The notes below the pieces were generated by a model that worked only from the letters and a program-made list of their open reading frames with translations, did no database searches and had not been told where the DNA came from. A program made the position numbers and the translations under genes. From an uncultured Anaeromyxobacter sp. (lineage in GTDB: Bacteria > Myxococcota > Myxococcia > Myxococcales > Anaeromyxobacteraceae), in assembly GCA_903904005.1 (NCBI GenBank), contig CAIVAR010000094.1, positions 1 to 39,273 on the forward strand: a DNA stretch of 39,273 nucleotides, given 5' to 3'. Of the stretch, positions 16,232 to 21,837 are shown in pieces; position 1 is the stretch's first letter, and the number at the start of each line of letters is the position of its first letter.

Positions 16232-17332
16232 TCAGGCGATCCAGTCCTTCTCCTTCAGCTTGGTGGGCAGGTACTCCTCGGTGATGAAGGAGATCCCGCG
16301 CCGGGACAGGGCCTCGAGCTCGTACTTCACGCCCGAGCGCACCATCTCCTGGATCTCGGCCTGCCACTGCTTGGCCTGGAACCAGGGGTAGGCGAGCATC
16401 TGCTTGGCCCGCGCCACGTCGCCGTCGTCCATCTTGATGGCCACGTTCGACGGGAGCCGGTAGGTCACCTTGTCGAAGGAGGAGAGGCCGATGAAGCGGG
16501 CGTCGGGGACCGCCATCCGCATCGACTCGAACGCCAGGTTGATCGACCCCTGCTTCACCACCGAGTAGATGTAGAAGCCCCAGGGATCGTTGTCCACGAG
16601 CACGTAGACCGGAAGTCCGAGCTCCCGGTGGAGCCGCTGCACCATGCGGCGCACGCCGCGCGGCGGCTGCCCTCCGCCGTGGATGATGATGGCGTTCTGG
16701 CGCTTCCAGAACTTGTCCTCGTTGAACCGGCTCCAGACCGCGTCCTTCTCCACGAGAAGCACGTACCTCGCCTCGTGCCGCCCGAACTGGATGACGTTCT
16801 CCTCGACGATGGAGGGCACGCCCCAGCCGCCCGATCCCATGCGGCGCAGGTCGATGGTGTCGCCCGAGTCGCGGATGGTGATGGGCCCGACCATGGTGCC
16901 CTTGCGGGAGGCGAAGAGGTGGAGCTCCTCGCGCAGTGTGTCGAGCGCCACCTCGATGTCCTCGATGATGGGGTCCGACTCGTCCTGCTCCTCGAAGGTG
17001 TTCTGCTTGGAGTCGCCGATGGTGTGCTTGGTGATGTAGTAGAGGTCGCGGATGCTGGTGGTCTTCCCCGACTCGATGAGCTCCTTGCAGGCGTCCGAGA
17101 CGAGGAAGGTCTGCATGAACTTCTTGGCCATCGCCACGTTGAAGAAGTAGCGCTTCTGGCGCTGGTTCCCGAGCTCCACCACCCGCTTCTTCTCGTTGAA
17201 GCGCACGTTGGCGAGGCTGCGCACCGGGATCTCGACGAAGGGGTTGCCGCCCCCCTTCACCGCCCGCAGCACCGACTCGGCCAGCTTCTCGATCTTCCCC
17301 ACCGTCTTCTTCGACACCGCGTCCATGCGCAC
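16232..17332 (-). CDS. top6A: DNA topoisomerase VI subunit A (Spo11-like)
   Basis: A 366-residue catalytic subunit. The winged-helix CAP domain carries the SIRDLYYITKH motif at residues 93-103, with the DNA-cleaving tyrosine at 98 or 99. The Toprim domain follows, with VLLVEKDAVW and the acidic pair in VLVDNDPWGFYIYS. Topoisomerase VI is an ATP-dependent type IIB enzyme that passes duplexes and relaxes or decatenates DNA. It is typical of archaea and plants and sporadic in bacteria, including myxobacteria. GTG 17332 directly abuts the TAA of the B subunit gene, with GGAGG 8 nt upstream. An alternative ATG at 17326 has poorer spacing. It is transcribed with the B subunit as one operon, and the A-B complex is expected in the cytoplasm. 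Confidence 0.95.
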   Translation of the reverse strand: MRMDAVSKKTVGKIEKLAESVLRAVKGGGNPFVEIPVRSLANVRFNEKKRVVELGNQRQKRYFFNVAMAKKFMQTFLVSDACKELIESGKTTSIRDLYYITKHTIGDSKQNTFEEQDESDPIIEDIEVALDTLREELHLFASRKGTMVGPITIRDSGDTIDLRRMGSGGWGVPSIVEENVIQFGRHEARYVLLVEKDAVWSRFNEDKFWKRQNAIIIHGGGQPPRGVRRMVQRLHRELGLPVYVLVDNDPWGFYIYSVVKQGSINLAFESMRMAVPDARFIGLSSFDKVTYRLPSNVAIKMDDGDVARAKQMLAYPWFQAKQWQAEIQEMVRSGVKYELEALSRRGISFITEEYLPTKLKEKDWIA

Positions 17333-19264
17333 TTATTCGTCCTCCTCGGAGCGCCGCGGGCGCTTCGCCGTCTTCTCGGCCGCCTCCTCGAGCTTCGCGT
17401 CCTGGCTCTCGAGATCGGCCTCGGTCACCTTCTCGGCCACCTTCATGAACTCCCGCCGGATGGGATCCGGGCTCCGGCCGACGATCTTGCCGATGGCCTC
17501 GGCCACCTCGTGGATGTAGAGCTCGAAGATGGAGCGGCGCTGGGACTGGTAGTCCGCGTGCTGCCGCTTGCGGATGTGGGCGGCCAGCTTCCTGCCGCAC
17601 TCCTGCGCGGCCAGCTGGATCTCCCGGATGATCTCCGGGTAGTGGGCCACCGCCTCCTTCGACTCGCTCGTGAAGGGCACCCAGACCGAGGCGATGTGCA
17701 CGAGCAGCGCCATGGGGCCCACCGGGAGCGATCCCTTGGGCTGCGAGAGCAGGTAGTTCCGCCAGTCGGTCTTGACCACCGCGTCGGTGATGCCGCAGGC
17801 GCTCCGCTGGAAGAGGAGCGGCACCCGGTTCGCGAAGCGGAACAGCTCGACCGGCTTGTCGGCCGGCCAGCTGCCGCCGAAGGCCAGCCCCACCTCCACC
17901 TGGAAGGGGTTGCCGCGGTACACCCGCGGCGGGCGCGTCACCGTGGCGATGAAGTAGTCGTGCCCCTTGATCTTCTCGACCCCCTCCTCGGCCTCGGCGT
18001 CGGCCGGGGCCGGCTCCGGCACGGGGGCCGCCTTCCCCTTCCCTCGGGTCTTCTTCTTCGCGACCTGGTCGAGGTCGAGCTGCCCGTCCTCGCCGTCCGG
18101 CCCGTCGGTCTCGATCACCGAGAGGAAGGAGACGAGCCCCCGGCGCATGAGCGCATCGCCGATGGGCGAGAGGCAGTTGGTGGGCGGCGCCATGATCTTC
18201 GTGGCCTGGATGCCCTTGTGGAGCTTCTCGGCCAGGTCGCGGTCCCCGGCGATATCGCGGGGACGGAGGCGGTCCTTCAGACCGGCGTTCTTCACGATCT
18301 CGCCGGCCACCTGGGCCGAGACCCGGCTGAAGGAGGACTGCAGGAAGCCGCGCACGTCGCGGCTCTTCGAGTCCCCCGCCATCGTCATGAGGGCGCCGAG
18401 CTCCACGCCGTGGGGGTGCGGCCGGATCTCCAGCGCCTCCTTGGGGAGCTCGCCGGTGGCCCGGGGGAAGCTGAGCCGCGCCTGCTTGGGGCGCAGGTAG
18501 TGGACGGTGCAGTGGGGGTTGGCGAGCGCGGTGTGCTCGACGTAGCGGTTCACGAACTTCTGCCCGGACTGCCAGTTGGCGACGATCTCCAGCTCGACCC
18601 GCGTGCCGTGCTCCTGGTGCCAGTCGTCGAGGGTCTCGTCCCGGTTCACCACCGGCGCGTTCTTGCGGGTGTCGATCTGGATGTCGAAGGAGTGGGTGGG
18701 CTTGCCCTTCCCGGTGCGGGAGACGACGCGGATGGGCTGGCCGGTGGTGAGCTGGCCGTACATGGCGGCCGCGCTGATCCCGATCCCCTGCTGCCCGCGC
18801 GACTGCTTCAGGCGGTGGAACTTGGAGCCGTAGAGGAGCTTGCCGAAGATCTTCGGCGCCTGGGCCTTCACGATGCCCGGCCCGTTGTCCTCGACCGCCA
18901 CCACGAAGCGCCCCTCGCCCTTGGTGAGCTCGCCCGAGCCCTCGAAGCCCAGGTCGCGGACCTCGATGGTGATCTCGGGGAGGATCCCGGCCTCCTCGCA
19001 GGCGTCGAGCGAGTTGTCGACCGCCTCCTTGATGGTGGTGAGGAGCGCCTTGGAGGGGTTGTCGAAGCCGAGGAGGTGCCGGTTCTTGGTGAAGAACTCG
19101 GAGATGGAGATCTCCCGCTGCCGCGAGGCCATCTCCTCGGCGGTGGCGCGGCGCTTCGGCTTGCGCGGCTCGGCGGCGGGCTCCGGCTCGGGGGGCGGGT
19201 TCGCCAACGCCACGAGCTCGAGCTGCCTCGTTCCCCTGTCCGCCTTCGCCGCCTTCGCCGCCAT
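17333..19264 (-). CDS. top6B: DNA topoisomerase VI subunit B
   Basis: A 643-residue ATPase subunit of the GHKL family. The N box is in TIKEAVDNSLDACE (Asn84), the glycine motifs are EDNGPGI and QQGIGISAAAMYGQLTTG, and a transducer domain follows, ending in a Lys/Arg/Glu-rich tail (EEAAEKTAKRPRR). ATP binding dimerises the B subunits and drives strand passage by the A2B2 enzyme. An Ala/Lys/Pro-rich N-terminal extension of about 45 residues comes before the conserved SISEFFTKNRHLLGFDNP. A charged insertion (about 410-450, VAKKKTRGKGKAAPVPEP) interrupts the transducer region. It is first in the top6B-top6A-small-basic-protein operon and divergent from htpX. Confidence 0.95.
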   Translation of the reverse strand: MAAKAAKADRGTRQLELVALANPPPEPEPAAEPRKPKRRATAEEMASRQREISISEFFTKNRHLLGFDNPSKALLTTIKEAVDNSLDACEEAGILPEITIEVRDLGFEGSGELTKGEGRFVVAVEDNGPGIVKAQAPKIFGKLLYGSKFHRLKQSRGQQGIGISAAAMYGQLTTGQPIRVVSRTGKGKPTHSFDIQIDTRKNAPVVNRDETLDDWHQEHGTRVELEIVANWQSGQKFVNRYVEHTALANPHCTVHYLRPKQARLSFPRATGELPKEALEIRPHPHGVELGALMTMAGDSKSRDVRGFLQSSFSRVSAQVAGEIVKNAGLKDRLRPRDIAGDRDLAEKLHKGIQATKIMAPPTNCLSPIGDALMRRGLVSFLSVIETDGPDGEDGQLDLDQVAKKKTRGKGKAAPVPEPAPADAEAEEGVEKIKGHDYFIATVTRPPRVYRGNPFQVEVGLAFGGSWPADKPVELFRFANRVPLLFQRSACGITDAVVKTDWRNYLLSQPKGSLPVGPMALLVHIASVWVPFTSESKEAVAHYPEIIREIQLAAQECGRKLAAHIRKRQHADYQSQRRSIFELYIHEVAEAIGKIVGRSPDPIRREFMKVAEKVTEADLESQDAKLEEAAEKTAKRPRRSEEDE

Positions 19265-20352: not shown

Positions 20353-20369
20353 GCGTCAACAGACGCTTT
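20353..20369 (+). terminator. Weak hairpin after htpX
   Basis: GCGTC (20353-20357) and GACGC (20362-20366) form a 5-bp stem with an AACA loop, followed by TTT. It is small and lies 21 nt after the htpX stop, so it is only a weak candidate. Confidence 0.3.
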
Positions 20370-20406
20370 CGTGGCGCCGGGGCCCGCCCCTCGCTAACGA
20401 CCCCCC

Positions 20407-20901
20407 ATGACCATCCCGATCCTGGCCGCGCTCCTCGGAGCGTCGGCTGCACTCAAGGTGGGGGACAAGGCGCCGGACTTCACTCTGCCCGGCACGGACG
20501 GCCAGCCCGTGACCCTCTCGAAGCTGCTCGCGAGGGGTCCCGTGATCCTGGCCTTCTTCCCCAAGGCGTTCACCCCTGGTTGAAACAAGGAAAATCAAGC
20601 GTACCGGGACCGGTATGCCGAGGTGGAGAAGAAGGGCGCAGAGGTCGTCGGAGTTTCCACCGACTCCGTGGAGAAGCTCGCGAAGTTCAAGGCCGAGTTC
20701 AGCCTGCCGTTCGTGCTCCTGTCCGACGAGAAGGGCACCGTCGTCGAGCAGTACCCGGGGAAGATCCCCATCCTCGGCGTCGCCAACCGGGCCACCTACG
20801 TCATCGGCCAGGACGGGGTGATCCAGCAGATCGTCACCGGTGGTGACGCGATCGATCCATCGTCGACCGTGGCGTCCTGCCCGATCGGGAAGAAGAAGTG
20901 A
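20407..20901 (+). CDS. Selenocysteine-containing peroxiredoxin
   Basis: Read through the TGA at 20581-20583, the frame from ATG 20407 encodes a 164-residue AhpC/TSA-type peroxiredoxin. The sequence runs [25 protein letters not shown], then the TGA codon at position 59, then [28 protein letters not shown]. The TGA sits exactly where the peroxidatic Cys of FTPGC is expected. Both halves are in one frame and are conserved family sequence, so Sec insertion is far more likely than a disrupted gene. The protein would reduce hydroperoxides. There is no Cys 5 residues after the active site, so it is not PrxQ-like 2-Cys; the only other Cys is in the tail ASCPIGKKK. The first 15 residues are hydrophobic ([14 protein letters not shown]) and may be an atypical export signal. 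A standard gene caller will split or truncate this gene at the TGA. Confidence 0.9.
20599..20618 (+). promoter_or_regulatory. Bacterial SECIS-like hairpin after the TGA codon
   Basis: GCGTACCG (20599-20606) pairs with CGGTATGC (20611-20618), 8 bp including one G-U, closing a GGAC tetraloop. The stem begins 15 nt after the TGA, and G occupies the first two loop positions. Distance, short apical loop and leading G agree with the known bacterial SECIS consensus recognised by SelB. The codons between TGA and stem (AAC AAG GAA AAT CAA) are AT-rich against their surroundings. Confidence 0.8.
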
Positions 20902-20904
20902 CCG

Positions 20905-20938
20905 GCGGGAGCCGGGGGTCCCCTACCCCGGCTCCTGC
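20905..20938. terminator. Bidirectional terminator between peroxiredoxin and ygfZ
   Basis: GGAGCCGGGG (20908-20917) pairs perfectly with CCCCGGCTCC (20926-20935), and the stem can extend three more pairs with one G-U. It lies directly after the peroxiredoxin stop and includes the ygfZ stop codon in its loop, so it could serve both convergent genes. Confidence 0.5.
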
Positions 20939-21837
20939 ACCATCACCCGGCGGACCACGGCCTCGCCCGCGGGCGTGCCTAGCCGCTCCCCCACACGCCA
21001 GTGGGCCCGGCGAAGGTAGCCCAGGCCGATCCGGCCGCCCGGGGCGTCGACAGCGCTCGTCACCCGGCCGACCTCCTTGTCCCCCGCGGTGAGGGTCGTC
21101 CCCGCGCCGGCCCCGGCCGGGAGATCGAGCTGCACCAGCCCGCGCTGGATGTGGCCGCGCACGGTGGCGCGCAGCACCACCTCCTGCCCCAGGTAGCAGC
21201 CCTTCTGGAAGTGGATGGCATCCCGGGTGAGCGCGGCCTCCATGGGGAGCCGCTCGCCGTCCACGTCGGCGCCGAAGCGGGCCATCCCCTCCTCGACCCG
21301 CAGCACCTCCAGGTCGCCGGCCGAGAGGTCGGCGGCGCCGGCGGCGAGCAGCCCGGCGCGCATCCCGGCGAGTTCGGGGCCCGCCCCGATCCCCTCGACG
21401 GCGGGGACGCCACGGCGCGGGGTCCCCGCCACCGTCACGCCGGCCCCGGCCGCGGCGCTCCCGGCCAGCCCGACGCCCCGCGGCCCGAGCACCGTCATCA
21501 CTCCAAGTGAATCGGAGACGTCGTCGACCTTGACCGGTGCGGCCAGGACGTACTTGCGGAGGTGGGGGACGAGGATGGCCACCTCGATCGCCTCGGTGAC
21601 GAGGAGGAGGTCGTCCGGGCGGGCCACCACGAGCCCCTCACCGACCACGTGCCCGCGCCCGTCGAGGAAGGCGGCGTAGGCGCTCCCGCCCGGCGGCAAC
21701 CCGGACAGGTGCTGGGTCGACATGCGGTGCAGGAAGTCCCGCGCGCCCTTGCCGGAGAGGCGCAGGACCCCGCGGGATTCCACCGGCCCGACGGCGGCGT
21801 CGGTCCGGGCGGCGGCGAGCTTTTGCAGGAGGGTCAT
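20923..21837 (-). CDS. ygfZ: YgfZ/GcvT-fold folate-binding protein
   Basis: A 304-residue protein of the YgfZ family. It has RGVLRLSGKGARDFLHRMSTQHL at the N-terminus and the family signature FQKGCYLGQE, with the conserved Cys in K-G-C-Y. YgfZ binds tetrahydrofolate and helps build or repair certain iron-sulfur enzymes such as the tRNA methylthiotransferase MiaB. The start ATG at 21837 overlaps the eamA stop by four bases (ATGA), so it is the last gene of the queG-eamA-ygfZ operon. QueG is itself an iron-sulfur enzyme for tRNA modification, so an iron-sulfur/tRNA theme fits, though this link is inferred. Confidence 0.92.
   Translation of the reverse strand: MTLLQKLAAARTDAAVGPVESRGVLRLSGKGARDFLHRMSTQHLSGLPPGGSAYAAFLDGRGHVVGEGLVVARPDDLLLVTEAIEVAILVPHLRKYVLAAPVKVDDVSDSLGVMTVLGPRGVGLAGSAAAGAGVTVAGTPRRGVPAVEGIGAGPELAGMRAGLLAAGAADLSAGDLEVLRVEEGMARFGADVDGERLPMEAALTRDAIHFQKGCYLGQEVVLRATVRGHIQRGLVQLDLPAGAGAGTTLTAGDKEVGRVTSAVDAPGGRIGLGYLRRAHWRVGERLGTPAGEAVVRRVMVQEPG

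Follow-up and report, generated by a model that had tools for sequence, protein, structure and literature searches.

Closest described systems

PrxU, of the Eubacterium acidaminophilum type (NF040737), is a peroxiredoxin family that includes selenocysteine (Sec) enzymes. For a close relative of the present organism, Anaeromyxobacter dehalogenans, three Sec-peroxiredoxins have been listed (Zhang et al. 2006, PMC1794560), in a table that does not say which genes these are, where the proteins are located or whether they have a second cysteine. A genome that is apparently A. dehalogenans (G014) contains exactly three TGA-bearing peroxiredoxin genes (L025, L168 and L175). One of these is the ortholog of a gene in the window, by which we mean the whole 39,273-nucleotide stretch of uncultured Anaeromyxobacter DNA that was analysed. 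This ortholog has TGA at the same codon and is about 66% identical. The kind of gene described below is already known from this close relative, and our findings are mostly a confirmation that adds a new member.

The window protein is a peroxiredoxin of the BCP/PrxQ-AhpE fold group. It carries the PxxxTxxC/U motif (P52-KAF-T56-PG-U59), wherein T56 and the active-site residue, along with R128, are invariant in a 23-row alignment. The structure model has a mean pLDDT of 88 and matches BcpB and AhpE. BCP/PrxQ proteins (Mycobacterium tuberculosis BcpB, 5epf; A. pernix PrxQ, 2cx3/4gqc) give the best sequence and fold matches, but the window protein has Sec where they have Cys, lacks a resolving Cys close to the active site and instead carries a Cys 99 residues further on. 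It scores 97.3 bits against the BCP/PrxQ equivalog PRK09437.1 (NCBIfam), below the cut-off of 140. M. tuberculosis AhpE shares the fold, with a TM-score of up to 0.82 (query-normalised). However, AhpE is described as a 1-Cys enzyme, whereas the family of the window protein retains a second Cys. A PrxU label was rejected because the score of 56 bits against NF040737, for which the cut-off is 270, does not indicate membership. The subfamily does not exceed the cut-off of any curated NCBIfam model.

The reading frame and its TGA codon

The gene and its internal TGA are located as follows.

20407-20901, forward strand: coding sequence of the predicted Sec-peroxiredoxin, 164 residues, with an ATG start, a TGA stop at 20899-20901, and AhpC-TSA and Redoxin matches
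20581-20583, forward strand: TGA, predicted selenocysteine codon (Sec59), at the peroxidatic position of KAFTPG-U, from the comparison of ortholog codons

With standard gene calling, this gene comes out split or truncated. The ORF caller breaks it at the TGA, and the only ORF listed is 20623-20901. The original prediction placed the TGA at the peroxidatic residue, in frame within 20407-20901 and with peroxiredoxin sequence continuing on both sides. Translation bears this out, and the read-through product matches AhpC-TSA (PF00578) at 3.5e-37 and Redoxin at 2.4e-23. A start upstream of the ATG at 20407 is impossible because an in-frame TAA precedes it, with three codons between. Translation from the internal GTG of codon 18 was rejected, since it would delete a conserved LKV segment at the beginning of the fold.

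A search of 145 genomes of the order, plus further loci, yielded 98 orthologous rows. Codon 59 is TGA in 53 of these and TGC or TGT in the other 45. As judged from this alignment with Cys homologues, which had been proposed as a check, the alternation is the classical signature of a Sec/Cys pair. The gene is present in two genomes of the same genus, and both carry TGA. In same-genus pairs, dN/dS is 0.10-0.24 for the part that precedes the TGA and 0.19-0.23 for the part that follows. Thus, the segment after the TGA is translated and under selection.

TGA is an ordinary stop in the code of the organism and the ORF caller treats it as such, as would be expected if the codon were a true stop that reflects a pseudogene or a sequencing error. 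This explanation is extremely improbable given that purifying selection persists 3' of the TGA, that a SECIS hairpin is conserved and that independently sequenced genomes have TGA at the identical codon position. An error that substituted TGA for TGC or TGT had been named as grounds for abandoning the proposal, and it is excluded because independent genomes, two of them from the same genus, carry the same TGA. Comparative data therefore make it almost certain that UGA 20581 is a sense codon and that 20407-20901 encodes a selenocysteine peroxiredoxin.

Selenocysteine machinery of the host genome

The host genome (G000; 4.56 Mb, 98% complete) carries selA, selB, selC and selD, the absence of which had been offered as another way to refute the proposal. 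The tRNA-Sec gene (selC) scores 80 bits and has the anticodon TCA. Profile searches of the genome recovered selA, as well as selB at 307 bits summed. The selD gene (387 bits; G000:C7:13565-14491, L013) has an in-frame TGA of its own, and its product is probably a selenoprotein too, which brings the predicted selenoproteins of the genome to at least two.

SelA is found in 50 of the 52 genomes that bear a TGA copy of the peroxiredoxin gene. The two genomes without detectable SelA are drafts (80% and 87% complete), and the gene is probably missing from them through incompleteness.

A candidate SECIS hairpin

The following element was assigned from its fold, its conservation and counts of paired positions.

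20599-20618, forward strand: candidate bacterial SECIS stem-loop, with the 5' arm at 20599-20606, the GGAC loop at 20607-20610 and the 3' arm at 20611-20618

The hairpin (GCGUACCG-GGAC-CGGUAUGC) has 8 base pairs and a predicted energy of -12.3 kcal/mol. It begins 15 nucleotides past the TGA, exactly as originally described, and its loop lies 23 nucleotides from that codon. Published bSECIS criteria (PMC13188914) include a loop of 3-9 nucleotides, an upper stem of 4-16 base pairs, 16-37 nucleotides between UGA and loop, a G in the first two loop positions and an MFE of at most -7.5. The loop, stem length, distance and energy of this hairpin all fall within these published constraints. The hairpin sequence is unique within the window, where 0 matches are expected. 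An Rfam scan at the locus returned no SECIS and no other meaningful match.

The stability of the hairpin by itself is unremarkable (z -0.6 versus dinucleotide shuffles; p 0.23 versus synonymous recoding of the same peptide). It is not above chance because a hairpin tends to arise wherever the peptide AYRDRYA is encoded. Since the single-sequence fold is not significant, the case for a SECIS element rests on comparison between species. Among 36 distinct TGA rows, 97.6% of cells pair across the eight pairs, and pairing is at most 37% when the partner is slid by 1-3 bases. Across 11 distinct Cys rows, only 58.0% of the cells pair. Three TGA rows (L037-L039) have U-A in place of A-U at one pair. 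Several hairpin codons in the TGA rows show excess synonymous constraint (GCG 100% versus a background of 53%), which is much weaker in the Cys rows. Part of the hairpin may be kept by constraint on the protein, as the region also encodes the conserved AYRDRYA. Judged by the between-species comparison, the hairpin 15 nucleotides downstream is conserved in the way that a SECIS element should be.

Codon choice is also distinctive immediately before the TGA. The Gly codon at 20578-20580 is GGT in 43 of the 53 TGA rows (about 80% versus a background of 14% among Gly codons) and in 4 of the 45 Cys rows.

The codons between the TGA and the hairpin had been called unusually AT-rich. This holds in the window, where 4 of the 15 spacer bases are G or C, but the composition is peculiar to the genus. 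Only two genomes of the same genus have it in common, whereas the spacers of other TGA orthologues are GC-rich (e.g., ACGCGCGAGCTCTCA). A functional AT-rich spacer was therefore rejected, as it is not found beyond the genus.

A distant second cysteine

One further residue is relevant to the catalytic mechanism.

20878-20880, forward strand: TGC, Cys158, candidate resolving cysteine, conserved and just after the C-terminal helix

The original prediction held that the enzyme lacks a nearby resolving residue. This is literally true, but it overlooks a distant cysteine. The window protein has no Cys other than Cys158, which lies just past the last helix predicted in the structure model. Exactly one Cys past the active site is present in 98 of 98 orthologues, at a distance of 99 residues in 89 cases and of 96-105 residues in the rest. 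This conservation makes Cys158 a likely resolving residue, and the enzyme is probably of the 2-Cys type with a distant resolving residue.

Established selenoprotein biology suggests that SelB would bind the stem-loop and deliver Sec-tRNA(Sec), such that Sec59 is inserted. Following peroxiredoxin chemistry, peroxide would then oxidise Sec59 to a selenenic acid (Sec-SeOH), and attack by Cys158 on the oxidised Sec59 would yield a Sec59-Cys158 selenenylsulfide. A thiol reductant, either thioredoxin or a Dsb-type protein, would regenerate the enzyme.

The lack of a Cys near the active site and the presence of the 1-Cys peroxiredoxin AhpE among the best fold matches would also suit a 1-Cys-type (1-Sec) enzyme. 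In such an enzyme, Sec59 would be the sole redox residue and, as in AhpE, an external thiol would reduce it directly, leaving Cys158 with a structural or other use. We consider this arrangement unlikely because the single additional Cys of the window protein has a counterpart in every orthologue and because Acidobacteriota Sec relatives retain a C-terminal Cys as well. The 2-Cys arrangement with Cys158 as the resolving residue is our preferred model.

The N-terminus and predicted location

A segment at the start of the protein bears on where the enzyme might act.

20407-20451, forward strand: hydrophobic N-terminal segment of 15 residues, candidate short signal peptide, from hydrophobicity across orthologues

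The N-terminus was originally proposed to be hydrophobic and able to send the enzyme to the periplasm. It is indeed hydrophobic, but it is short and has no basic residues. The window protein has a hydrophobic core and A-S-A, lacks a basic n-region and is short for a signal peptide. The structure model has confidence under 50 for residues 1-13.

If the segment is no signal peptide, then the protein would be cytoplasmic. This is quite conceivable for a stretch that spans just some 15 residues and contains nothing basic after the Met, where only some relatives have a Lys. However, almost every orthologue is hydrophobic over its first 15 residues even though the letters vary, and the BCP paralogue of the same host (L165), which starts MALEIGRKAPDF, lacks this segment. 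Moreover, classical signal peptides are found in Acidobacteriota Sec relatives (L069, L092, L096, L108, L114 and L115; e.g., MRKRIAFSICALALLWLAMPAPAQ in L092). On balance, these comparisons moderately favour export of the enzyme to the periplasm by its short hydrophobic N-terminus. The suggestion that the periplasm would be an unusual place for a Sec-peroxiredoxin needs revising, as the clear signal peptides of the Acidobacteriota relatives indicate that the case is not singular.

Genomic neighbourhood

Topoisomerase VI is of archaeal and plant type and is uncommon in bacteria. Adjacent genes for its subunits A and B occupy window positions 16232-19264 on the reverse strand. A gene for a GCV_T-domain (YgfZ-like) protein lies at 20923-21837, also on the reverse strand, and is convergent to the peroxiredoxin gene in most genomes of the family.

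Many family orthologues share an upstream pattern (window positions 20360-20406 and the corresponding region of L018-L039) that consists of TTGC, about 17 nucleotides, and CTA(A/G) ending about 10 nucleotides before the ATG. Several have no clear ribosome-binding site upstream. The TTGC/CTA(A/G) pattern is promoter-like and may give rise to a leaderless mRNA.

Relatives beyond the order

TGA-containing peroxiredoxins occur in 16 Acidobacteriota loci (L059, L062, L064, L065, L067, L069, L072, L081, L091, L092, L094, L096, L104, L108, L114 and L115) and also in Gammaproteobacteria (L111 and L113) and Chloroflexota (L134). All 16 of the Acidobacteriota proteins have the C-terminal Cys, and most have signal peptides. 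Their genes carry a hairpin at the same place after the TGA (UACCA-GGC-UGGUA), which has the same architecture in other letters. The five upper pairs are present in almost all rows, whereas the lower stem is less well kept. Pairing differs in the two gammaproteobacterial relatives.

Repeated exchange of selenocysteine and cysteine

The tree of the 98 rows requires at least 8 Sec/Cys changes, 4 of which are forced by well-supported branches. L179 has TGT and is placed among close relatives with TGA. A full hairpin is still present in several Cys copies (L040, L180, L185, L206 and L207). These observations suggest repeated change from Sec to Cys, where the direction is one we infer and the counts are unrooted. 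Zhang et al. 2006 (PMC1794560) observed few Sec-to-Cys changes other than in formate dehydrogenase and SelD.

A literature search, with most subscription journals outside its reach, found no exported Sec-peroxiredoxin subfamily and no myxobacterial Sec-peroxiredoxins beyond the counts in PMC1794560. We see about an even chance that these genes represent an unnamed subfamily of exported Sec peroxiredoxins in Myxococcota and Acidobacteriota. Its members would have an AFT-x-G-U site and a C-terminal Cys that forms a selenenylsulfide with Sec, and in Myxococcales the Sec would have been repeatedly lost for Cys, leaving fossil SECIS hairpins. The details that are new are the second conserved cysteine, the probable export and the repeated switches to ordinary Cys.

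The family is a good natural series for Sec-to-Cys conversion, as the codon differs between close species and the hairpin lingers in some Cys copies. If the enzymes are exported, then many soil and sediment bacteria would use Sec-based peroxide removal outside the cytoplasm.
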